Shown: one piece after another, positions 324 to 42,009 of the stretch
How positions within the stretch are numbered: the first letter of the stretch is position 1
Layout: each line of letters starts with the position of its first letter
Source: Herpetosiphonaceae bacterium
GTDB taxonomy: Bacteria > Chloroflexota > Chloroflexia > Chloroflexales > Kallotenuaceae
Length of the DNA stretch: 45,874 nucleotides
Assembly: GCA_036374795.1 (NCBI GenBank)
Contig: DASUTC010000358.1
Span: forward strand, 1-45,874
Reading direction: 5' to 3'
Notes under the pieces: model-generated
Databases searched by the model: none
The model's input: the letters and a program-made list of their open reading frames with translations, nothing else
Told to the model about the DNA's origin: nothing
Position numbers and translations under genes: made by a program

Positions 324-452
324 GTTTCAAGTTCAAAGTTTCAAGTTTCAAGTTTCAAGTTCAAAGTTTCGAGTTTTGAGTTCAAGGTTTTCCTTGTTCC
401 TTTGTGCGCCCAGAGGGCACCCGGTTCCTTTGTTCTCTTGTTCCTTTGTTCT
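324..452. repeat. Composite heptanucleotide repeat: GTTTCAA block then TTTGTTC block
   Basis: From 324 to 386 nine 7-bp units run in perfect phase (GTTTCAA, GTTCAAA and close variants). A T-rich block follows from about 387 to 452, built on TTGTTCC/TTTGTTC words and interrupted by a short GC-rich stretch (about 408-424). The same two blocks occur inverted at 5123-5194 and in degenerate form at 9779-9830. It fills the gap upstream of the LysE-type gene. It is not a CRISPR: the units are 7 bp and have no spacers. Confidence 0.85.
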
Positions 453-469
453 CGCGTGATTCCGACCAT

Positions 470-506
470 AAAAAAAACCCCGCCTGACCGATCGTGGTCT
501 GGCGGG
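470..506 (-). terminator. Rho-independent terminator, minus strand
   Basis: CCCGCC/GGCGGG (479-484 with 501-506) and GACC/GGTC (486-489 with 496-499) form a stem with one T-T mismatch and a six-base loop. Read on the minus strand it is followed by eight T (470-477). It would end transcription coming from the NYN-domain gene at 715-1215. The 200 bases between that gene and this site hold no convincing gene. Confidence 0.8.
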
Positions 507-714
507 TGCTCGACACGAAACGCGACGGGCGCAGCTATCCAGACCTCCGATCGGAGACGAATCCGAGGTTTTGCTGCTGCTGTGGGCTGCTGATCACTAT
601 GTCGTCACGTTTATGCATCACACGTCTACGCTTCATCTTGTGCGGCAGCCTAGCAAGCCGCAGGCGTCGCTGTCAATAGACCATTGGACCAATCGGCCGG
701 GCAGAGGTTGATCG

Positions 715-1215
715 TCAGGCATCGGGCGCAGGCTCGTCGGAGTCTACGCCAAACTCTTTGAGCCAGCGATCGACCTCGGCTTTGGAGAGCTTGGGCTCTG
801 GACGTGGGCGCTGCGGCCTACGGCTGCGGGCGGGTGATGTCGGCTGCTCAAGCTGGGCGGCGAAACGCTCCGCGCGGATGACCTCGATCTGCCTGGCATG
901 CGCCACGGTCGCAACCGAGCGATCGGAGGTGACGACGCGGTACTGCCGGGGCTCTGTCACCCGGTCGATCAGCCGGATCAGGCGCTCGTCGGCGTCCTGG
1001 GGCGAGCGTGCAAAGACCGCGCGGATGCCGGGCGGCTCAAGCGCCTGCGGATGTCCGTACACGCCGCCATCGAAGACGACGGTGATCCGGTGGCGGTGAT
1101 GGCGCAGCACCCAGCGGTGCAAATAGTCCACCAGCCGGGCCTCGTCGTCGGGATCGGTGAGGCGGATGGTGCGGCACTGCCCGATTAAGTTGTGTCCATC
1201 GATGATGTAATGCAT
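715..1215 (-). CDS. NYN-domain (YacP/Rae1-like) ribonuclease-family protein
   Basis: The 166-residue protein opens with YIIDGHNLIG, the first acidic motif of NYN/PIN-fold nucleases. It then shows VVFDGG (about residues 46-51), an acidic SPQDADERLIRLI segment (about 91-103) and VVTSDRSVA (about 113-121). These are the spaced Asp residues that bind metal in the YacP branch. Bacillus Rae1 (YacP) cleaves mRNA on the ribosome, so a role in RNA turnover is likely, but this exact function is inferred. The C-terminal 40 residues are basic and Pro/Arg-rich (ARSRRPQRPRPEPK), then acidic, and may contact RNA or ribosome. The Shine-Dalgarno is weak. The gene stands alone, with a terminator about 200 bases downstream. 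Confidence 0.8.
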   Translation of the reverse strand: MHYIIDGHNLIGQCRTIRLTDPDDEARLVDYLHRWVLRHHRHRITVVFDGGVYGHPQALEPPGIRAVFARSPQDADERLIRLIDRVTEPRQYRVVTSDRSVATVAHARQIEVIRAERFAAQLEQPTSPARSRRPQRPRPEPKLSKAEVDRWLKEFGVDSDEPAPDA

Positions 1216-1364
1216 CGCCCGACAACCTGATACGCGGTCAAAAACGCGGCTATTGTCCCAGAGCGATCTGTCATCGATCTGTCATATGATCGCCCGTACA
1301 CTACTACCATCTTCGGCCTTGATCAGACACAATAGCTAATGAACACGTTGTGCAAGAGGCCACT

Positions 1365-1736
1365 GTGACATCACCCAATTACATCCTGATCGCAGATGAT
1401 GACCATAAAATCCGTGCACTGTTAGTACGAGTTGTGCAAAATGTCGCGCCGAACGCCGTGATTGTTCAGGCCACAAGCGGCACCGAGGCATTGTCTGCGC
1501 TCCAACAACATAGCTTTACGCTCGTGATCACAGATTACCACATGCCGGGCGCGTCTGCGCTTGATATTCTCGCCGCGACACACGCTCGGGATGCCGATGT
1601 GCCTGTGATTGTCGTCTCGGCTCGCTCCCAGGTCGAACCAAAGGTCCGCGCGGCAGGAGCAGCCGCGTTTTTCTCCAAGCCCTTCGAGATCGAGGCGCTC
1701 ACCGCGATTGTCCGGCGCGCGCTGCACTCGTCGTAG
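1365..1736 (+). CDS. Single-domain response regulator (CheY-like receiver)
   Basis: The protein is a receiver domain with no output domain. It shows the acidic cluster DDD (residues 11-13), the phosphoacceptor Asp57 in VITDYHMPG, the switch Ser85 in VIVVSARS, and Lys105 in FFSKPF. It should be phosphorylated by a histidine kinase and act by protein contact, but no kinase is adjacent. The GTG at 1365 is preferred because AAGAGG lies five bases before it; an in-frame GTG at 1350 would add five residues but has no ribosome site. A terminator follows directly, so it is a single-gene unit. Confidence 0.88.
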   Translation: MTSPNYILIADDDHKIRALLVRVVQNVAPNAVIVQATSGTEALSALQQHSFTLVITDYHMPGASALDILAATHARDADVPVIVVSARSQVEPKVRAAGAAAFFSKPFEIEALTAIVRRALHSS

Positions 1737-1761
1737 TCCCACTCCACAATCCGGGTAACAC

Positions 1762-1795
1762 TAAGCAGCGCATCTGCGGCGCTGCTTATTTTGTT
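1762..1795 (+). terminator. Rho-independent terminator after the response regulator
   Basis: A perfect 10-bp stem (1762-1771 with 1779-1788, core AAGCAGCGC) with a seven-base loop is followed by TTTTGTT. It starts 25 bases after the receiver gene's stop codon. Confidence 0.88.
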
Positions 1796-1843
1796 GATCC
1801 GTTTACGGTCGGATCGCCCCGATGTGTCATCGCAGGAGCCTCG

Positions 1844-1852
1844 TGCTATACT
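1844..1852 (+). promoter_or_regulatory. Extended -10 promoter element for mazG
   Basis: TGC-TATACT, an extended -10 box, sits 60 bases before the mazG start. No good -35 is visible at 17 bases. The same TGn-TATAnT form recurs before uvrA, before the tail-collar gene leader and in the 28.5 kb island, which raises confidence. Confidence 0.55.
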
Positions 1853-1911
1853 ACAAGCGTAGCTGAACGTAATAATCGGACATTGTACACACGTCCGTAG
1901 AATATGCATCT

Positions 1912-3453
1912 ATGGCAACACTCACTATTCTAGGGCTGGGGCCGGGCAGCGCCGAGCTGCTCACGGCTGAGGCGGTCGCTCATCTTCAGCAGATCGAAGA
2001 GCTGACTCTGCGCACACAGGTTCATCCGACGGTTGGGCAGCTTCCGGCCCATCTGCGTATCCGCTCGTTCGATGCGCTGTACGAGACGGCGACGGATTTC
2101 GCCGCGATCTACCGCCGGATCGCCGAGGAGCTAGTCGCGCGGGCTGCGCGCGGCGAGGCGGTGACGTACGCCGTGCCCGGCCATCCGCTGGTCGCCGAAG
2201 CGACGACGCGCCAGATCCGCGCGCTTGCCCGTGAGCGCGGCATCGATCTGCGGATCATCGCCGGTCTTTCGTTTCTGGAGCCGGTCTGCGAGGCGCTGGA
2301 TCTCGATCCCTTCGAGCGCGGCCTGCAACTGGTCGACGCGCTGGAGTTTGGCGGCGCGGCCTCGTTTCCAACGGCTACCACGCCGGAAACGCGCGCCTGG
2401 GCTGAGCTGCAAGGGCACGGGCCGTACGAGCCGCCGCTGCTGCCGTTTCCGGTGCTGACCACGCAGCCGGTGCTGATCGCGCAGCTTTACAACCGGCGCG
2501 TCGCCTCGATGGTCAAGCTCGCGCTGCTGGCGCGCTATCTCGCCGAGCATCCGGTGACGATCGTGCGGGCGGCAGGCGTCAACGGCCAGACGCAGGTCGG
2601 CACGGTGGCGCTGCATGAGCTGGATCACGATCCGGCGCTCGATCATCTGACCGTAGCCTATCTGCCGCCGCTGCCGGTGCATGAGGATGTGCGCGGGATC
2701 GATGGCATCCACTGGGTGATCGCGCGGCTGCTGGGGCCTGCGGGCTGTCCCTGGGATCGCGAGCAGACCCATCACTCGCTGCGGCCATTCCTGCTGGAAG
2801 AGGCGCACGAGGTGCTGGAAGCGCTTGACGCCAACGATCCCGAAGCGCTCAGCGAGGAGCTTGGCGATCTGCTGCTTCAGATCATGCTGCACAGCGAGAT
2901 GGCGCGGCAGGCCGGAGACTTCGATTTTGGCGATGTCACGGCGCATATTGCGACGAAGCTGATCCGGCGGCATCCGCATGTGTTCGGCGATATTGCGGTC
3001 GGCGGCACCGCCGATGTGCTGCGCAACTGGGAGGCGATCAAGGCGCAGGAGCACGCCCAGAAGGGCAAGACTCGCGCCAGCCTGCTCGACGGCATTCCGG
3101 TCAGCCTGCCAGCGCTGGCGGCGGCGCAGAAGCTTGGCGAGAAAGCGGCCAACGTCGGCTTCGACTGGCCCGATGTGGCGGGTGTCTGGGCCAAGGTGCA
3201 TGAGGAGATCGAGGAGATTCACTCGGCTGCGCCTGAGCAGCGCAGCGAGGAGTTTGGCGATCTGCTGTTCGTTGTATCGCGGCTGGCCTCGTGGCTGGAT
3301 GTCGATGCCGAGACGGCGCTGCGCGAGGCTAACGCTAAGTTCCGCCGACGCTTCGCCGCCTGTGAGGGTCTGGCCGAAGGCCGCGATCTGAAACAGATGA
3401 GTCCGCAAGAGCTGGATGTGCTGTGGGAGCAGGCGAAACGCATGGAAGTCTGA
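1912..3453 (+). CDS. mazG: MazG nucleoside triphosphate pyrophosphohydrolase with N-terminal tetrapyrrole-methylase-like domain
   Basis: The 513-residue protein has two parts. Residues 1 to about 230 match the methylase-like domain of YabN proteins: ILGLGPGS at the N-terminus and [10 protein letters not shown] near 84-93. The second part is a tandem MazG. The first MazG copy carries [12 protein letters not shown] then EEAHE and EELGD; the second carries EEIEE and EEFGD. These acidic pairs bind the metal needed to hydrolyse NTPs to NMP and pyrophosphate. MazG cleans the nucleotide pool and in some bacteria lowers ppGpp. The methylase-like domain has no confirmed substrate in this family. It starts a plus-strand run with DUF951 and nfeD. 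Confidence 0.93.
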
Positions 3454-3486
3454 GGCTCTCGAACGCTGTGCCTGATTGGATGAGCT

Positions 3487-3744
3487 ATGCCAGGACCGAT
3501 ACCGCTCCAGGTTGGTGATACTGTACAGATGCGCAAGCAGCATCCATGTGGTGGCGATACGTGGCGGATCGTGCGGATCGGCGCGGATATTGGGATTCGC
3601 TGCCTGACCTGTGATCGCAAGGTGCTGCTGCCGCGCTCGGAGTGCGAGCGCCGCATCAAGCGCATGCTCGCGCGCGCAGCCGACACGACCACAGGCGATC
3701 CGCCGACCGATCAGGTCGTTCCATCCGAACGCGACGCGCGATAA
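3487..3744 (+). CDS. DUF951 family protein
   Basis: This 85-residue protein matches the small DUF951 family (YyzM-like), found in Firmicutes and Chloroflexota. Visible family marks are [14 protein letters not shown] (about 13-26), [10 protein letters not shown] (about 30-39) and [12 protein letters not shown], giving three cysteines, two in a CxxC pair that may bind metal. The fold is probably a small beta barrel. Its function is unknown; homologues often lie near translation and replication genes. The C-terminal 25 residues are polar and poorly conserved. It begins 33 bases after mazG and is probably co-transcribed with it. Confidence 0.85.
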
Positions 3745-3783
3745 CGTGGAACTGCACGCCCGCTCGAACGTACACATAACTGC

Positions 3784-5112
3784 ATGAATTGTTTTTCAAA
3801 ATCCTGCTTCGCCGTCTGGCTGATGGTCTACTTGTTCCTGGTAGCCTTGCTGCCGTCGGGGATCGGCGCGCAGAGCCAGGGCCAGGTATACTACGTGGCG
3901 GCGGAGCAGGGCCTGACTACTCCGGCGATCAGCCTGGTGCGCCGCGCGCTGCGTGAGGCGGAGGCCGCCAACGCAAAGGCGCTGGTGATCGAAGTGCGCG
4001 GCGGCGGCTCGCTCGACGGCACCTGGCAGCTAGCGCGCGATCTGGCCGCAGCGCGCGTTCCGGTCGTGGCCTATATCGCGCCGCGCGGCGGGCGCAGCGG
4101 CCCTGTCGGTACGCTGCTGGTGACGGCGGCGCATGTCGCGGCGATGGCTCCCGGCGCGACGATTGGCTTTGCCGAGCCGCTGGTCGATATTCCCTCCAAC
4201 TTTTCCCCCACGACGCAGCGGTTGGTCGTCGAGGATGCCGTCAAGCAGCTTACCGCGTGGGCACAAGCGCGGCAGCACAACGCCGACTGGATCGAGCAGG
4301 CCGTGCGCAGCGGCGCGATCGTCACTGCCGAGCAGGCGCATGCGTTAGATCCGCCGGTGATCGACGTGGTGGCGACCGAGGATGAGCTGCTGGCAAGTCT
4401 GCAAGGGCGGCGGGTGACGCTGGCTCATGGCGAGACGCGCACGCTCGAAACGCTGGGGGCGCAGGTGCAGCGCGTCGAGCCGATGGTCTGGGAGTCGCTC
4501 GGCCAACTGCTCGCGCTTCCATCGATCGCGTTCGTGCTGTTTGTGCTGGGCGGTATCGCGCTCTATCTTGAGCTGGCGAATCCTGGCGTGGGTATTCCGG
4601 GCATCGCGGGTGCAATCCTGGTAGTTGCGGCGCTGGTTGGCTTTGTGCTCGGCGAAGTTCGGCCTCTGGCGGTGCTGCTGCTGGCCGCCGGGCTAGTCGT
4701 CGTTGGTCTTGAGCATGTGGTCATGTCGCATGGCGGCCTGACCGTCGCCGGGCTGATTCTGCTGGTGCTCGGCGCGCTGTACCTCGTCGATCCGGCGCGC
4801 ACGCCCGGCCTGGGCGTGTCGTCGCTGGTGATCGCGGGCGTGGCGCTGGTGCTGGCTGGCGCTGCAAGCGGTCTGGTCGCGCTGGCGGTGCGGGTGCGCG
4901 CCCGCAGGCCGGTGACGGGACGCGACGCACTAATCGGGCAGGTTGCGGAGGTGCGCCAGACGGTCGCGCCCGAAGGGCAGGTCTTTGTCAACGGCGCGCT
5001 CTGGTCGGCCTGGACCGATGATGGGCCGTTCGCCGTGGGCGACTTTGTAGAAGTTGTCGGCGTCGAGGGGCTGCGGCTGTATGTACGGAGAGTAGGCCAG
5101 GAGGCGGAGTAG
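3784..5112 (+). CDS. NfeD-family membrane protein with ClpP-like domain lacking the catalytic serine
   Basis: The 442-residue protein has a signal segment (about 9-29), an extracytoplasmic ClpP/crotonase-like domain (about 35-230), four to five membrane helices (about 240-365) and a C-terminal OB-fold NfeD domain (about 375-440). Long NfeD proteins are usually Ser-Lys peptidases that cut stomatin-like partners, and the next gene here is a stomatin, the classic pairing. The expected nucleophile motif (SAGT) reads PVGT at residues 107-110, and the upstream TPGG is RGGG (72-75). The lysine expected near residue 145 also seems to be missing. It therefore looks like a scaffold rather than a protease. 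The alignment was made by eye. Confidence 0.85.
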   Translation: MNCFSKSCFAVWLMVYLFLVALLPSGIGAQSQGQVYYVAAEQGLTTPAISLVRRALREAEAANAKALVIEVRGGGSLDGTWQLARDLAAARVPVVAYIAPRGGRSGPVGTLLVTAAHVAAMAPGATIGFAEPLVDIPSNFSPTTQRLVVEDAVKQLTAWAQARQHNADWIEQAVRSGAIVTAEQAHALDPPVIDVVATEDELLASLQGRRVTLAHGETRTLETLGAQVQRVEPMVWESLGQLLALPSIAFVLFVLGGIALYLELANPGVGIPGIAGAILVVAALVGFVLGEVRPLAVLLLAAGLVVVGLEHVVMSHGGLTVAGLILLVLGALYLVDPARTPGLGVSSLVIAGVALVLAGAASGLVALAVRVRARRPVTGRDALIGQVAEVRQTVAPEGQVFVNGALWSAWTDDGPFAVGDFVEVVGVEGLRLYVRRVGQEAE

Positions 5113-5122
5113 CGAGAGCGAA

Positions 5123-5194
5123 GAACAAAGAACAAAGAACAAAGAACAAAGAACAAAGGGAATCACTTGAAACTTGAAACTTGAAACTTGAAAC
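5123..5194. repeat. Composite heptanucleotide repeat: (GAACAAA)5 then (TTGAAAC)4
   Basis: Five exact GAACAAA copies (5123-5157) are followed after nine bases by four exact TTGAAAC copies (5167-5194). This is the reverse complement of the 324-452 element in both unit sequence and block order. It fills the gap between the nfeD-like gene and the stomatin gene and ends 22 bases before the latter's start codon. Confidence 0.95.
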
Positions 5195-5216: not shown

Positions 5217-6134
5217 ATGGCCGAGTTAGGCGGTTTGGGCATCCTGCTCTGTTTGGGCGGCCTCTTCTTTATTGGACTCATGTACCTGTTCGCCGCAATT
5301 CGGGTGATACCTGAGTACGAGCGCGGCGTGATCTTTCGGCTGGGCCGTTTGGTCGGTGCGCGCGGGCCGGGCCTCTTCTTTGTCTGGCCGCCGATCGAGC
5401 GCATGATCCGCGTGGATACGCGCGTGCTGACGATGGACGTTCCCGCGCAGGAGGTGATCACCCTCGACAACGTGACGATCAAGGTCAACGCGGTGCTGTA
5501 CTTCATGGTGATCGATCCGAACAAGGCCGTCGTCAACGTGATGGACTACATCCGCGCCACGATGCAGATCGCGCAGACCACGGTGCGCAGCGTGATGGGC
5601 AAGGTGGAGCTGGATACGATCCTGGCCGATCGGGCGCGGCTCAACAGCGAGATCCAGCAGATCATCGACGAGCAAACCGAGCCGTGGGGCGTGAAAGTGA
5701 CGATCGTCGAGGTCAAAGACGTAGAGCTGCCGCAGCAGATGCAGCGCGCGATGGCGCGTCAGGCCGAGGCCGAGCGCGAGAAGCGCGCCAAGATTATCCA
5801 CGCAGAGGGCGAGTTCCAGGCATCCAAGCAGCTTGCGGCGGCGGCGGATATTATCGCCCACGAGCCGGTGACGCTTCAGCTACGCTACCTGCAAACGCTG
5901 ACTGAGGTCGCGACGGAGAAGAACTCGACGATTCTCTTTCCCTTCCCGCTCGATATTGTTCGTCCGTTCCTGGGCATGATGGGCACGTCGGAGGAGGTAG
6001 AGCTGAAAAGAGCCGCGATGCAGCAGGCGAATGCCGCCAGAGCATCACAGCGGCCAGCGGTGCAGGCAGGACCGGCTGCGCCAGCCACGCAGCAGCTCCG
6101 CCCTGAGCCGAATCGCGCTCCGCCCACGGAGTAA
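5217..6134 (+). CDS. Stomatin-like (slipin, SPFH domain) membrane protein
   Basis: The 305-residue protein has one N-terminal membrane segment (about 6-26) and then the SPFH domain. Typical slipin blocks are VIPEYERGVIFRLGR, GPGLFFVWP, VDTRVLTMDVPAQEV and the helical MQRAMARQAEAEREKRAKII with the following AEGE. Such proteins form large membrane-bound rings and organise membrane microdomains together with NfeD partners. The ATG at 5217 is chosen for AAAGGA seven bases upstream; an in-frame TTG at 5181 lies inside the heptamer repeat and is unlikely. The last 50 residues are Ala/Gln/Pro-rich. It forms the usual pair with the nfeD-like gene before it. A hairpin follows its stop. Confidence 0.93.
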   Translation: MAELGGLGILLCLGGLFFIGLMYLFAAIRVIPEYERGVIFRLGRLVGARGPGLFFVWPPIERMIRVDTRVLTMDVPAQEVITLDNVTIKVNAVLYFMVIDPNKAVVNVMDYIRATMQIAQTTVRSVMGKVELDTILADRARLNSEIQQIIDEQTEPWGVKVTIVEVKDVELPQQMQRAMARQAEAEREKRAKIIHAEGEFQASKQLAAAADIIAHEPVTLQLRYLQTLTEVATEKNSTILFPFPLDIVRPFLGMMGTSEEVELKRAAMQQANAARASQRPAVQAGPAAPATQQLRPEPNRAPPTE

Positions 6135-8992: not shown

Positions 8993-9712
8993 TCACGGCA
9001 CGGCACGCAAGCTGGCCTGCTGGATCAGAAACAGCTCACGAATCCCCTGAGTGCCAAGGTCCAGCATCGCGTCGAGCTGCCGCCGGTCGAAGGGCTGCCC
9101 CTCTGCCGTGCCCTGTACCTCGACGAACGCGCCGCTGCCCGTCTGGACAATGTTACAATCGACGGCGGCGGTGCTGTCCTCCTCGTAGCTCAGATCGAGC
9201 AGCGCCTGCCCGCCGACGATGCCGACGCTGATCGCAGCGATCTGAGTGATCAGCGGCGAGACGGTGAGCGTGCCGTCTTTGAGCAGCGTCTCGACGGCGT
9301 AGGCGACGGCGACATAGGCTCCGGTGATCGCGGCTGTGCGTGTGCCGCCGTCTGCCTGAAGCACATCACAATCCAGGGTGATCGTACGCTCGCCGAGGAG
9401 CTGGAGATCGATTGCGGCGCGGAGCGAGCGCCCGATCAGCCGCTGGATCTCCTGGGTACGTCCGCTTGCTCCGTTGCGCTCGCGGCGCGTGCGGGTATGC
9501 GTGGCGCGCGGCAGAAGCGAGTATTCGGCGGTGATCCAGCCCTGGCCGCGTCCTTTGAGCCAGGGCGGAACGCCCGCCTCGACGCTGGCGCTGCACAGGA
9601 CGTGCGTGTTGCCACACTTGATCAAGACCGATCCCTCGGCATATTTTTGCACATGGGCGACGATCTCAACTGGACGAAGCTGATCGGGTCTGCGGCCATC
9701 TGAGCGCTGCAT
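8993..9712 (-). CDS. rph: Ribonuclease PH
   Basis: The 239-residue protein has the normal RNase PH length. It shows [13 protein letters not shown] at the N-terminus, [58 protein letters not shown] and [16 protein letters not shown]. The arginines and aspartates of these blocks form the phosphate-dependent active site. RNase PH trims the 3' end of tRNA precursors using inorganic phosphate. The ATG at 9712 is preceded by a strong GGAGG at five bases, so upstream in-frame ATGs are rejected. It is transcribed away from uvrA. Confidence 0.96.
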
Positions 9713-9778: not shown

Positions 9779-9830
9779 GTTCAGCGTTCAACGTTCCAGG
9801 TTCAAGGTTGCTTCCTTGTTCTTTTGTGCT
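9779..9830. repeat. Degenerate composite heptamer repeat between rph and uvrA
   Basis: Five 7-bp units in phase (GTTCAGC, GTTCAAC, GTTCCAG, GTTCAAG, GTTGCTT; 9779-9813) are followed by TTGTTCTTTTGTGC. Block order and the terminal TTTTGTGC match the element at 324-407, so this looks like a decayed copy. The rest of the 374-base gap holds the uvrA promoter and no gene. Confidence 0.7.
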
Positions 9831-14599: not shown

Positions 14600-17056
14600 A
14601 TGCGTAAACAGGCCCCGTGGATGGTCGGCGTGATCGTGCTGATGGCCCTGCTGCTCTTCCCAGCGGCAACACCTGTCTCAGCCGCCACCATCGTTGTCAA
14701 TCCGGGTGGTGGTGGCAACTATACGACGATCCAGGCGGCCATCAACAACGCCAGCCCTGATGACACCATCGCCATCAAAACTGGCACCTACAACGAAAAT
14801 CTTAACCTCAGTCTCATGGGCAGCGCCATCGGTGGCGCAACCGGCAACCTCCAGCTCGTCGCTGTCGATGGTCCCGGCACTGTAAACCTCACTGGTACGG
14901 GCACCAAGATCACCCAGAGTGGTGCTTTCAACGGTAGCCTGATCATCAACGGCCTGCGCTTCTCCACCAGCAATGAGGACGGCATTCGGTTGAGCAGCTT
15001 CAACAGCCTGCTGATCGTCAACAGCACCTTCGGTCCGATCGGCTCCGACACCAGTCTGCACAACGGCCTGGAGCTAACGATCGGCAGCGGCGCTCCCAAC
15101 GTCGTACTGTACAACAACACCTTCCGCAACATCTCGAACGACGCGATTTTAGCGGTCGCTCAGGGTAGCGCGCAGCCAACCTTTACGATTGTCTCGAATA
15201 CGATCTCCGACGACGGCACCCACGGCAACACCACGGATCAGGCGATCTCGATTGAGATGCGCGGGACCGTCAACGGGCGGGCCACGATTGTCGGCAATAC
15301 GCTGACACAGCTTGAGAGCCGGGCTGTCGTCGTCGCGGCGAACGAGGCCGCGCAAGTGCGGGCACAGATCGTCGGCAACACGATCGACACCATCACCACG
15401 GTTGACCAGGCGATCGTGGCGGAAACGCTCAACGGCTCCACGACCGCGCTGCTCGACGTTGCGATCAACAACAACACGATCAGCAATGTCAGCAGCGGTA
15501 ACGGTATTTCGGTGTTCATGGGCGGTATCGTGGCAACACCCAGCACGCCGCGTATCGTCGCCAGGATCATGGGTAATACCCTGACCAACATCGGCAACAA
15601 CGACTTCGATCGCGGCATCGCGATCATCCCAGGCATCAACAACAATACCAACCTGAATGGTACGATGAACGTGCTGGTCGAGGGCAACCAGTTGACCAAC
15701 ATCGCGGCATCCGGCCTGTACATCCTCGCAGATGACAGCATCGATATTGATGCGACGGTGCGCAACAATACCTTCACCAACACGGTGACGTTCACCAGCG
15801 CCAACGAAGCGGGCTTCCTGTTCCGCACCAACAATGCAAGCGCGCTCCTGCGGCTGGCGCTCACCAACAACACAGCGACGACGGCCACGCCCGCTACCAA
15901 CCGCGAGATTCGGCTGCTGCATCAGTTGGGAACCTTCCAGCTCGAAGGCAATCCGGCCCTGACGGTCGAGCAAAACGTGGCGGCGGATAATCCAAGCGCG
16001 GCGGGATCGATTCTGGTCAACGGCACGATCAGCATTATTCCACGTGGCACAGTTGCAGCACCGGCTGCCATGGACCCGCCAGTCGCCCAGGACGACACGG
16101 CAAGCGCCATGAGCGGCACGCCCACGACGATCAATGTGCTGGCGAACGATCTCGATCCGAACGGGACGCCGGTCGGACTCCAATACTTCACCTTCACCTC
16201 GTTCCGAGGCGGCACTGTTACCCGCAACGACAATGGCACGCCCGCCAATCTGACCGACGATCGGCTGGTGTACACGTCGCCAGCGGGCTATGCCGGCACC
16301 GATACGCTCTACTACACGGCAACTGACGGCACAGGCACCGACGTGGCGCTGGTAACAATCACGGTCATTCCGCAGCCGACGGCAACGCCGACGAATACGC
16401 CGACGGATACGGCCACGCCGACGCCGACCAACACGCCGACCAACACGCCAACCGATACGGCCACACCGACGCCGACCAACACGCCGACGAATACGCCAAC
16501 CGATACCGCGACGCCGACGCCGACGAATACGCCGACGGATACCGCGACGCCGACGCCGACCAACACGCCGACGAATACGCCGACGGATACTGCGACGCCG
16601 ACGCCGACCAACACGCCGACGGATACCGCGACGCCGACGCCGACCAATACACCAACCAACACGCCGACGAATACTGCGACGCCGACGCCAACCAGCACCG
16701 TGGTCTACAACTTCACCGGCTTCTTCCCGCCAGTCGATAACCCGCCGGTGTTGAACTCCGTGAAGGCGGGCCGTTCGATCCCGATCAAGTTTAGCCTCGA
16801 CGGCTACCAGGGCCTCGACATCTTCTGGAGCGGCTATCCTGTGTCGCGGAAGATCACCTGCGACTCCAGCGATCCGATCGATACCATCGAGGAGATCTCG
16901 GCACCAGGATCGAGCGGCCTTTCCTACGATGCAACGACCGATCAGTACACCTACATCTGGAAGACGGAAAAATCCTGGGCCAACACCTGCCGCCAGTTGA
17001 TCGTCAAGCTGGCTGACGGCAGTGAGTATGTCGCGGAGTTCAGGTTTACCAAGTAA
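14600..17056 (+). CDS. Secreted beta-helix protein with Thr/Pro linker and C-terminal PxKF domain
   Basis: The 818-residue protein is exported: signal peptide about 1-28 ending TPVSAA. Residues about 30-490 are a right-handed parallel beta-helix, shown by [17 protein letters not shown] and many NNTI/GNTL turns. Next is a cadherin-like [10 protein letters not shown] module (about 500-590), then a linker of about 100 residues of [12 protein letters not shown] repeats. The C-terminal domain has [15 protein letters not shown], the signature of the PxKF family. Beta-helices of this kind bind or cleave polysaccharides; no catalytic residues were recognised, so a structural or adhesin role is equally possible. 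The ATG has AAAGGAG nine bases upstream. It may be co-regulated with the tail-collar gene 128 bases before it. Confidence 0.82.
16377..16695 (+). repeat. In-frame tandem repeat coding the Thr/Pro linker
   Basis: Units of 36 bp (coding [12 protein letters not shown]) alternate with 12-bp units (NTPT), all multiples of three. Copy-number change would alter linker length without a frameshift. Confidence 0.85.
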
Positions 17057-18292: not shown

Positions 18293-18871
18293 ATGCTGCA
18301 AGGGTTGAAGGCGGTCGCGAAGTGGGCGATCGTGCGGGCGCTAACGGCCTACGTCGTCGCCAAGTACCGGCTGCTGCGCGGCGATCGGGTGCAGTTCGGC
18401 CCCGGCTTTCAGGCGAATCGCAAGCTGGTGATCAAAGGGCCGGGCCGCGTGATCTTCGGCGCGCATGTCAACGCCTGGGCGCACGAGGAGCGCAATGTGA
18501 TCATCACGTACGGCCCCGACGTGACGATCGCGATCGGCTCGCATGTGCGGCTCAACGGCGTAGGGCTGATGGCGAAGCGCGGCATCACCATCGGCGATCA
18601 CTGCATCCTGGGCTCGACGCTGCTGGTCGATACCGATTTTCACAGCGTCCGCCGCGACCGCACGACCAATCCATACGCGCCTGTCCACAGCGCGCCGATT
18701 ACGGTCTGCGATAATGTGTGGCTGGCCGGGCAGACGGTAGTGCTCAAGGGCGTGACGATCGGCGCGAACTCGGTGGTCGGCTTCCGCGCCGTGGTGACGC
18801 GCGACGTGCCGCCCGATGTGATCGTGGCGGGCAATCCGGCGCGCGTGGTGCGGGGGGTGGATGAAGGGTAG
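18293..18871 (+). CDS. Left-handed beta-helix (hexapeptide) acyltransferase
   Basis: The 192-residue protein has an N-terminal amphipathic segment (LKAVAKWAIVRALTAYVVAKY) and then hexapeptide repeats: IAIGSHVRLNG, ITIGDHCILGS, TVCDNVWLAGQTVVLKGVTIGANSVVG and VPPDVIVAGNPARVV. The latter blocks are typical of maltose/galactoside and colanic-acid O-acetyltransferases; the DTDFH segment carries the likely catalytic His. It should acetylate a sugar, perhaps in surface glycan synthesis. It starts two bases after the methyltransferase stop; a GTG at 18287 overlapping that stop is an alternative. The two genes are probably co-transcribed, although their functions are unrelated. Confidence 0.85.
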   Translation: MLQGLKAVAKWAIVRALTAYVVAKYRLLRGDRVQFGPGFQANRKLVIKGPGRVIFGAHVNAWAHEERNVIITYGPDVTIAIGSHVRLNGVGLMAKRGITIGDHCILGSTLLVDTDFHSVRRDRTTNPYAPVHSAPITVCDNVWLAGQTVVLKGVTIGANSVVGFRAVVTRDVPPDVIVAGNPARVVRGVDEG

Positions 18872-18889
18872 AACAAAGGAATGTTGAAC

Positions 18890-24899: not shown

Positions 24900-24943
24900 G
24901 CCCAGTTTCCTTTGCTAGTGCGCCGAGAGGTAGGAGGCTAGGA

Positions 24944-25017
24944 GAACAAGGGAACAAGCGAACAAAAGAACAAAACGCACACCTTGCTTGTTCCTTTGTT
25001 TCTTTGTTTCTTTGTTT
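24944..25017. repeat. Inverted GGAACAAGC repeat cluster with octamer tract
   Basis: GAACAAG/GAACAAAA words (24944-24975) face their complements at 24986-25017. A 12-bp arm pair (24948-24959 with 24986-24997, one G-T) could fold, and the right side ends in three exact CTTTGTTT octamers (24994-25017). It lies upstream of the MFS gene. The remaining bases to 25126 hold no gene. Confidence 0.8.
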
Positions 25018-32994: not shown

Positions 32995-34163
32995 ACCTGT
33001 CCAATCAGGGATCGAAGGCGCTGACGCACAACCGCCAGCACCTGCTCCACGCTAATCCGTTGTAAACATGTTCGATCGGGACAGCCGTTGGGCGTGCCCA
33101 GGTGATGGTCGCGATAGATGCACGGGCTGCACGCAATCGCCGCTTTGAGCGCGCGATGCTCTCCCGCTTGTAGGATCTCGACGCCGTTGGCGAAGCTGCT
33201 CTGCGGCTGCCAGGACTTGCCGCCGTACGGCCCCCAGGCGCGCGGATCGGTCGGCCCGAAGATCGCGACCACCGACGTGCCCACGCTGCCCGCAAGATGA
33301 GTCAGGCCGCTGTCGTTGCCGACGAAGAGCGTGCAGCGCTTGAGCACCGCCGCCAGATCCTCCAGCCCTGTACGTCCGCCGAGATCGAGCACCGCTGGCG
33401 CGTGACGCATGCCGTTCAACATCCGCCGCCGCACGTCGGCCTCTTCCGCGCCGCCGACCAGCACGATGCTCGCGCCATCCTCGATCAGCGCGTCGGCTAG
33501 CTCTGCGAAGCGCTGCGGAGGCCAGCGCCGCGCCGGTGCGAACGCGCCCGACCCCGGATGCAGCGCGATCAATGGCTGCTCGGCTGTAGCCTCGCCAAGC
33601 AGCGCCGCAGCGCGGTCGGCGGCAGCCTGCGAAACGGCCAGCCGTGGCTGGGGCCGGTGCGCCGCGCCAAGCAGCCCAACCACCGATAGCCAGTACTCGG
33701 CCTGGTGCTGCGCCCCGAACCCCACATCAGCCACTCGATCGGTCAGAAAGAAGCCGCGCCCGTTATCCAGACCGTAGCGCCGTGGAGCGCCGGAGGCGGC
33801 AGCCAGCGCCGCGTATTTCAACGTGCCGAACCACGTCGTCAGGTGGTGTAAGAGCACACAGGCATCGAATCGTCCGCCGCGCAGCCGCCGCCAGAGTCGT
33901 ACGGCATAGCCTAGATTGGCAGGCCGGAGCAAGGCGCGGGGTGTGTTAAAGCGCTGCTTTTCAAACACGATCAGCGCGTCGTGGGGTTGACCGCGGAGGA
34001 TAGCCGCGCCGAGCGGCGTTGTCAGGACGCTGATACGAGCTGCGGGAAATGCCTGCCGTAGCGCATGCAGCGCGGGTATGATCAGTAACGCATCGCCAAG
34101 ATCGGCTAATGTGACGAGCAGGATACGATTTGGTGTTGCGTTGGATGTAGAAAGGCGATTCAT
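32973..34163 (-). CDS. GT9-family (heptosyltransferase-like) glycosyltransferase
   Basis: The protein (396 residues from 34163) has the GT9 double Rossmann fold. Marks are ILLVTLADLGDALLIIPALHALR at the N-terminus, LHPGSGAFAPARRWPPQRFAEL, IVLVGGAEE and FVGNDSGLTHLAGSVGT, then FGPTDPRAWGPYG. ADP-heptose:LPS transferases share these, but Chloroflexota lack LPS, so another sugar and a surface glycan acceptor are likely. The tail CSPCIYRDHHLGTPNGCPDRTC has paired cysteines seen in many family members. Neither the ATG at 34163 nor that at 34172 has a ribosome site; an extended -10 box ends 10 bases before the former, which suggests a nearly leaderless mRNA. Confidence 0.85.
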   Translation of the reverse strand: MNRLSTSNATPNRILLVTLADLGDALLIIPALHALRQAFPAARISVLTTPLGAAILRGQPHDALIVFEKQRFNTPRALLRPANLGYAVRLWRRLRGGRFDACVLLHHLTTWFGTLKYAALAAASGAPRRYGLDNGRGFFLTDRVADVGFGAQHQAEYWLSVVGLLGAAHRPQPRLAVSQAAADRAAALLGEATAEQPLIALHPGSGAFAPARRWPPQRFAELADALIEDGASIVLVGGAEEADVRRRMLNGMRHAPAVLDLGGRTGLEDLAAVLKRCTLFVGNDSGLTHLAGSVGTSVVAIFGPTDPRAWGPYGGKSWQPQSSFANGVEILQAGEHRALKAAIACSPCIYRDHHLGTPNGCPDRTCLQRISVEQVLAVVRQRLRSLIGQVCGSTTS

Positions 34164-41903: not shown

Positions 41904-41952
41904 ATGGGGGGACGAGTGTAGCGAGGCCGAGGGTGTGAGGGCCTACCAGAGA

Positions 41953-42009
41953 ACAGAACAACAAAGGAGCAAAGGAACAAAAGCGTCAGGCCGCGTCTCT
42001 TGTTCCCTT
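41953..42009. repeat. Inverted AAGGAACAA repeat cluster upstream of the rpsF promoter
   Basis: GAACA/GGAGCAAA/GGAACAAAA words (41953-41982) face TTGTTCCCTT (42000-42009). The arms AAAGGAACAA (41971-41980) and 42000-42009 pair over 10 bp with one G-T. It resembles the cluster at 24944-25017. The gap to 42046 holds no gene. Confidence 0.75.

Follow-up and report, generated by a model that had tools for sequence, protein, structure and literature searches.

Tandem heptamer repeats of bacteria are usually filed as slippage products, and we know of no function shown for those described as intergenic spacers, nor, to our knowledge, of a fixed two-block composite among the short tandemly repeated repetitive (STRR) sequences of cyanobacteria. 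Among the closest described systems are the GGGNATC and GGGGA(C/T)T heptamers of Xanthomonas and Nostoc, which are intergenic, rare between divergent genes and closer to the 5′ neighbor gene, with convergent inverted pairs being frequent in Xanthomonas (PMC4692102). TAACTGA direct repeats occur in marine Beggiatoaceae, cyanobacteria, and Bacteroidetes (PMC4679880), three different dispersed tandem heptanucleotides are mentioned for Calothrix PCC 7601 by way of citation in PMC4692102, and the (GATAGRA)n satellites of Chloroflexus aurantiacus are heptamer-derived, scattered and, according to the authors, probably transposed (PMC6749651). Here, we analyzed a stretch of 45,874 nt (contig DASUTC010000358.1, positions 1 to 45,874, forward strand; the window), which is part of a 7.75-Mb draft genome of 373 contigs from a Herpetosiphonaceae bacterium of the Chloroflexota (GCA_036374795.1), and in which two tandem heptamer blocks, block B (GAACAAA and related words) and block A (GRAACTY), stand side by side as a composite. 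This composite is a new form within the known intergenic heptanucleotide repeats, and we put a probability of roughly 0.6 on its being a copied, non-autonomous intergenic cassette, tolerated where it lies behind stop codons, that slippage then reshapes.

The repeats studied here resemble the GGGNATC repeats (PMC4692102) in forming around a hundred or two dispersed, mostly intergenic arrays per genome with variable unit number, in being rare in divergent gaps, in lying nearer to the 5′ gene whatever its direction, and in reading on the coding strand after stops and on the non-coding strand before starts; convergent inverted pairs are shared with those of Xanthomonas. The features by which intergenic heptanucleotide simple-sequence repeats (SSRs) have been defined, i.e., two or more tandem 7-nt units, dispersed and over-represented between genes, nearer to the 5′ open reading frame and rare between divergent ones (PMC4692102), were found here. 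What sets the family apart is its A-rich GAACAAA unit, a switch between unit lengths of 7 and 8, and a second block in fixed order; neither GAACAAA nor GRAACTY contains G-tracts, and the G-quadruplex potential (four G-tracts) is a trait of the GGGNATC type only. The TAACTGA repeats (PMC4679880) are likewise intergenic heptamer direct repeats with a preferred polarity toward the downstream start and a patchy distribution over phyla, but they have one unit, present in 2 to 6 copies in the main genome studied, usually end a few nucleotides from the start, and have been reported with one inverted case and no second block or hairpin. Compared by description, the STRR repeats of filamentous cyanobacteria are also dispersed tandem heptanucleotides, and the (GATAGRA)n satellites are also heptamer-derived and scattered in a Chloroflexota genome, although with another unit and no reported two-block order. 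No description of a polarized two-block heptamer element was found in the literature searched, with most subscription journals lying outside that search.

In the window, the second of three composites (5121-5194, + strand) consists of a perfect block B of (GAACAAA)5.4 at 5121-5158 (100%), a 6-base gap, and a perfect block A of (TTGAAAC)4.3 at 5165-5194 (100%). It starts 8 nt past the stop codon of a gene for an NfeD-like protein (3784-5112, +) and ends 22 nt before an SPFH/Band 7 (stomatin-like) gene (5217-6134, +), just upstream of the ribosome-binding site GAAAGGA. The first composite (322-453) has the same B-A arrangement on the opposite strand and is imperfect. Its block A (322-390, −), with GRAACTY heptamers on the − strand, appears in window reading as an imperfect GTTTCAA/GTTCAAA array (323-376 by Tandem Repeats Finder [TRF], 7.7 copies, 80%) and ends about 20 nt upstream of the start codon, at 303, of a partial LysE-type translocator gene (1-303, −). 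TTTGTTC words then run to 453; this block B (391-453, −), with GAACAAAG/GAACAAGA units on the − strand, is split by the hairpin core GGGTGCCCTCTGGGC at 408-422 (−), a GC-rich near-palindrome that is itself a dispersed repeat. The third copy (9779-9830) is decayed, with 4.4 copies of block A at 83% (9779-9809, −) followed by CTTGTTCTTTTGTGC, the remains of block B (9810-9830, −; GCACAAAAGAACAAGG on that strand), and lies upstream of an RNase PH gene (8993-9712, −). In all three composites the B-then-A strand points at the start of the next gene (LysE-like, stomatin-like, and RNase PH, respectively).

The original prediction, made from the window's letters, had placed composites near 324-452, 5123-5194, and 9779-9830, and all three proved real by repeat coordinates, TRF copy numbers and periodicity, the longest run with period 7 in the window being 31 bases compared to a maximum of 9 in 20 first-order simulations. 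Its description of the first copy as heptamers followed by TTTGTTC words is right apart from the interruption of the B part by the near-palindrome at 408-422, which reads GCCCAGAGGGCACCC in the window. The shared terminal TTTTGTGC that it reported is only approximate: the CTTTGTGC of the first copy belongs to the palindrome as its flank, and the copy at 5121 has no such word. The two heptamers, which it had called unrelated, both carry GAAC on the same strand and are therefore related words. A search of the window against Rfam gave no match.

A census of the repeats drew on 1.96 Mb of the ~7.7-Mb genome, divided into a first set (the window and 29 contig segments, 1.56 Mb) and a second set (0.39 Mb). 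Many segments were picked from contigs with known matches, which biases densities, while order, polarity, and position should be unaffected. Genes were called with a purpose-written script (1199 genes, 85% coding). A reversed-sequence control of the degenerate scan proved unsuitable as a null, one A variant being similar to A units read in reverse, and exact patterns and an unbiased TRF run were used in its place. In the whole genome, an exact block B 15-mer gave 140 matches and its reversed control 0; for block A, the figures were 98 and 23, with the control itself being an A-like word. The TRF scan of the first set returned units that were nearly all GAAC words (AAAGAAC 63, AAACTTG 30, AACCAAG 20, AACAAGGG 15, AAAGGAAC 14, AAACTCG 13, and AACTTGG 12), and 166/188 period-7 and 64/83 period-8 arrays were intergenic. 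Block B is built of GAACAAA, GAACAAGG, and GAACCAA, i.e., GAAC plus A/C-rich letters, with main spacings of 7 and 8, while the GRAACTY units of block A keep a spacing of 7 almost without exception. The sample contained 151 elements with at least three units. Of these, 54 were composites, 40 B alone, 26 A alone, and 25 inverted. Since both blocks also occur singly, and B in inverted pairs, the composite represents one of several arrangements within a modular family that includes inverted B-loop-B hairpins and composites enclosing a GC-rich hairpin. Extrapolated from this quarter of the genome, the repeat made of both heptamers would number a couple of hundred copies or more.

The order and polarity that the original prediction had proposed were kept in nearly all pairs across the sample. 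Where A and B arrays were neighbors within 150 bp, the arrangement was B+A+ in 57 pairs of the first set and 13 of the second, A+B+ in 1, and A+B− in 3 and 1, respectively, so that 70/75 pairs conformed (p ~3e-36 against an expectation of 1/4). This bears directly on whether replication slippage alone could have made the composites, with GAAC seeds expanding independently in each gap and the order set by chance or by local sequence bias. Slippage would readily explain perfect arrays such as 5121-5158, many bacteria are reported to have an excess of heptamers, or heptamers as their most frequent class of long SSR (PMC4679880, PMC4692102), and (GAACAAA)n is also found in unrelated phyla. However, independent slippage predicts homogeneous arrays or mixed orders, and not a 70:5 bias, hairpin cores shared between loci, or the recurrence of one imperfect block, unchanged, at dozens of sister-species loci (below). 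As an explanation of the composites as a whole, slippage alone is strongly disfavored and in our view improbable; it is likely, on the other hand, to account for changes in unit number.

Further evidence for copying came from the element borders. When 54 composites were aligned pairwise with 200 nt of flanking DNA, the alignments ended within or near the element borders, 95% of them reaching no more than ~15 nt to the left and ~19 nt to the right; the marked exceptions were modules of nonribosomal peptide synthetase (NRPS)-like genes on contigs C242 and C241. Of the 54 composites, 12 enclose GC-rich palindromes, namely GGGTGCCCTCTGGGC or a longer one that ends in GGGGTGAGGGCC, in nearly constant orientation, GGGTGCCCTCTGGGC itself being found in the same orientation in 9 and reversed in 1, and the hairpin-bearing composites align over 113 to 142 nt at 72 to 87% with unrelated flanks. 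The sister species of the same genus (G001) has a second block of its own, GAACCTA, without any exact match to the A word in its genome, and its preferred order is the GAACCTA block before B (9/12 pairs). Among 100 listed four-unit matches (of 116), tallied by hand and including some that overlap within one array and are therefore not all independent sites, the imperfect block GAACCTA-GAACCCA-GAACCTA-GAACCTA made up 51 (p ~6e-24 if units were independent), compared to 24 for CTA-CTA-CCA-CTA, 10 for the perfect array, and 1 to 2 for CCA-CTA-CTA-CTA and CTA-CTA-CTA-CCA. The dominance of one imperfect block shows that blocks there spread by copying and not only by slippage, which would homogenize or scramble them.

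The arrays were strongly tied to the gaps between genes. Array bases were 45-fold denser in gaps than in genes, and among arrays with at least three units 123/131 (~94%) were intergenic in the first set and 21/25 in the second; the expectation that they always lie between genes thus holds for most but not all. Neither random orientation nor equal frequency within genes, either of which would have spoken against a defined element, was found in the sample. Elements occupied 100/892 co-directional gaps (11%), 25/200 convergent gaps (12.5%), and 9/206 divergent gaps (4.4%; Fisher p 0.0016 for the divergent deficit), and in co-directional gaps the median distance was 17 nt to the upstream stop and 42 nt to the downstream start. 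Block B was closer to the 5′ neighbor gene (151:38 in the first set, 24:5 in the second, and 19:5 in the sister species), and block A, as its mirror, to the 3′ neighbor gene (64:16 and 13:5). At most 20 nt past stop codons, block B faced outward 74 times and inward twice, and TAG stops supplied by the element (TAGAAC) were mildly enriched beside B (41/74 compared to 617/1445). As a separate observation, composites at C242:30465-30503, 33668-33713, and 50399-50460 lie within genes judged by eye to encode NRPSs, in the linker after an RLVAYVV-like motif, where they seem to add peptide stretches; B arrays of the sister species occur at the same kind of place.

The composite could instead be a functional cis-element acting in the intergenic mRNA of operons, as a site for an RNA-binding protein or as a translation or processing signal before the ribosome-binding site, and keep its order and polarity for that reason. 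We regard this main rival as unlikely. Up to 50 nt from a start codon, block A was on the coding strand in 38:0 cases and block B on the non-coding strand in 38:4, and up to 50 nt after a stop, block B was on the coding strand in 108:20. A arrays in co-directional gaps ran sense rather than antisense in 41:18 cases of the first set, the smaller second set agreeing with 10:2 (51:20 pooled, p 0.0003), and a similar proposal exists for the TAACTGA repeats (PMC4679880). The asymmetry near starts, however, is largely or partly what an element with two different ends, one B and one A, would show anyway. Moreover, 20 A arrays are antisense in co-directional gaps, elements also reside in convergent gaps, which contain no start codon, the composites show no marked RNA fold, and none of the other family members seen has the element in its NfeD-stomatin gap.

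RNA folding compared to shuffled sequences gave a median z of ~−0.5 for the composites and of ~−4.9 for the inverted B form, which was strong on both strands. Long hairpins in which the two blocks would pair imperfectly with each other (CAAAG/CUUUG, CCAAG/CUUGG) were considered and rejected as a general feature (median z ~−0.4 to −0.65). Inverted pairs of block B (B+ then B−) numbered 25 in the first set and 1 in the second. The window has one at 24942-25017, with B units on the + strand (24942-24975), a short loop, and B units on the − strand (24983-25017), which is intergenic and flanked by two − strand genes (24899, 25127), and a degenerate one at 41947-42000. The inverted form might be a transcription terminator or a 3′-end stabilizer, the composite then being a derivative that lost the hairpin. 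Its strong fold, its location behind stop codons, and its presence in the sister species, the family member G003, and G048, a member of another family, would suit such a role, as would an orthologous site, downstream of the gene that precedes C139:17674 and behind its stop codon, with the inverted form in the sister species and a composite in this genome. The inverted form is, however, also found in operon-like gaps 10 to 30 nt before starts, its loops vary, it has no separate U-tract, and the change at the shared site may have run either way; this reading seems improbable.

Comparison with relatives showed how narrowly the composite is distributed. The exact A word, at 98 places in this genome, was absent from 59 relatives, and the composite, with 20 matches here, from 150 other genomes of the phylum; a named genome collection, from which this genome was perhaps left out, gave no match to the exact composite. 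The B word had 83 matches in the sister species and 100 in G048 and was scarce or absent elsewhere in the order; the same B arrays were seen in a Roseiflexaceae metagenome bin. Other genomes of the order have intergenic-looking arrays of related words (GAACAGG/GAACAGA, GAACATA, GAACCCA), as if these were lineage-specific dialects. The NfeD-stomatin gap lacks the element in all five family members compared (G001 to G005), and in the sister species it is short with the same ribosome-binding-site flank. At the 322-453 site the sister species is also without the element, although another element lies at a different position in that gap, and at 18866 its orthologue carries a large element where this genome has a remnant, TAGAACAAAGG (18868-18885, +), which runs across the stop codon of a gene that ends at 18871. 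These differences, at a handful of orthologous sites, indicate that elements come and go, or are rebuilt, from one species to the next within one genus, and the two-heptamer element looks young and species-specific.

Together, conserved order and polarity, intergenic location, and similarity that ends at the borders make a defined, copied element the better reading. The family would be a modular non-coding intergenic repeat of this genus, built from tandem 7- to 8-nt GAAC words, with block B at the 5′ end, block A at the 3′ end in this species only, and sometimes a GC hairpin between them that resembles repetitive extragenic palindromes (REPs). Preassembled blocks or whole cassettes may be copied into new intergenic sites, by transposition in trans or by recombination-mediated copying, and replication slippage and point mutation may later change their length and sequence at each site. 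Most would be retained in gaps directly after a stop and before the next ribosome-binding site, where an insertion spares both genes, and no host function would be needed.

Several points weigh against this reading. No recognized hairpin was found in 42/54 composites, so that the common descent of those rests mainly on order and polarity, and in this genome the unit orders of block A differ between loci, a pattern that predominant local slippage or mutation would produce, indicating that local turnover is probably also at work. The B word can arise repeatedly, as (GAACAAA)n arrays with at least three units are found, frequently accompanied by other T-poor words, in such organisms as Bacteroidetes, Treponema, and an Oscillatoriales bin, and the sense bias of the A arrays could point to function. 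Finally, with congener flanks only ~80 to 87% identical and array ends fuzzy, neither a target-site duplication nor an encoded enzyme nor a precise empty site was definable. Where the original prediction spoke of a mobile or copied element and not random slippage, copying is the better reading, but mobility finds no target duplication or linked enzyme to support it, and slippage probably shapes copy number. REPs and their associated tyrosine transposases (RAYTs) offer a parallel, being likewise short, copied, intergenic, and tolerated in gaps, and some composites contain REP-like GC-rich palindromes, but the heptamer blocks are not palindromes. The only RAYT match in this genome (Y1_Tnp, PF01797; C210:33821-33928) is a decayed fragment that covers 36/121 profile positions in a 52-amino-acid open frame with a stop. 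Mobilization by a RAYT was rejected, as no intact enzyme is present in this genome; matches were fuller in G001, G002, and G003. Terminal inverted repeats, a trait of miniature inverted-repeat transposable elements, are absent from the A-B composite; the arms of the inverted B form are long and inverted, and its loops vary.

Two further observations concern the window. The stretch between the LysE gene and an NYN gene (454-560) contains a terminator-like AAAAAAAACCCCGCC..GGTCTGGCGGG with GCGCAGCTATCCAGACCTCCG after it, a feature conserved in the sister species and without an Rfam match, and long repeats of the ACGCCGACG type lie at 16375-16698 within a gene (14600-17056) whose protein has a bacterial immunoglobulin domain.

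The placement rule found here is the same as for unrelated G-rich heptamers in other phyla, and therefore need not depend on G-quadruplexes. It is conceivable, though doubtful, that a dedicated copying process spreads polarized heptamer cassettes behind stops, and that the same process or constraint sets the identical placement, with the 5′-most block facing out of the gene and divergent gaps avoided, for unrelated heptamers in Chloroflexota, Xanthomonas, and Nostoc. The polarity of the two blocks, a second block private to the species, and the recurrence of one and the same imperfect block at dozens of sister-species sites show that preformed arrays are copied, and both the spread of heptamer repeats and the reason for their placement become testable in this genus.

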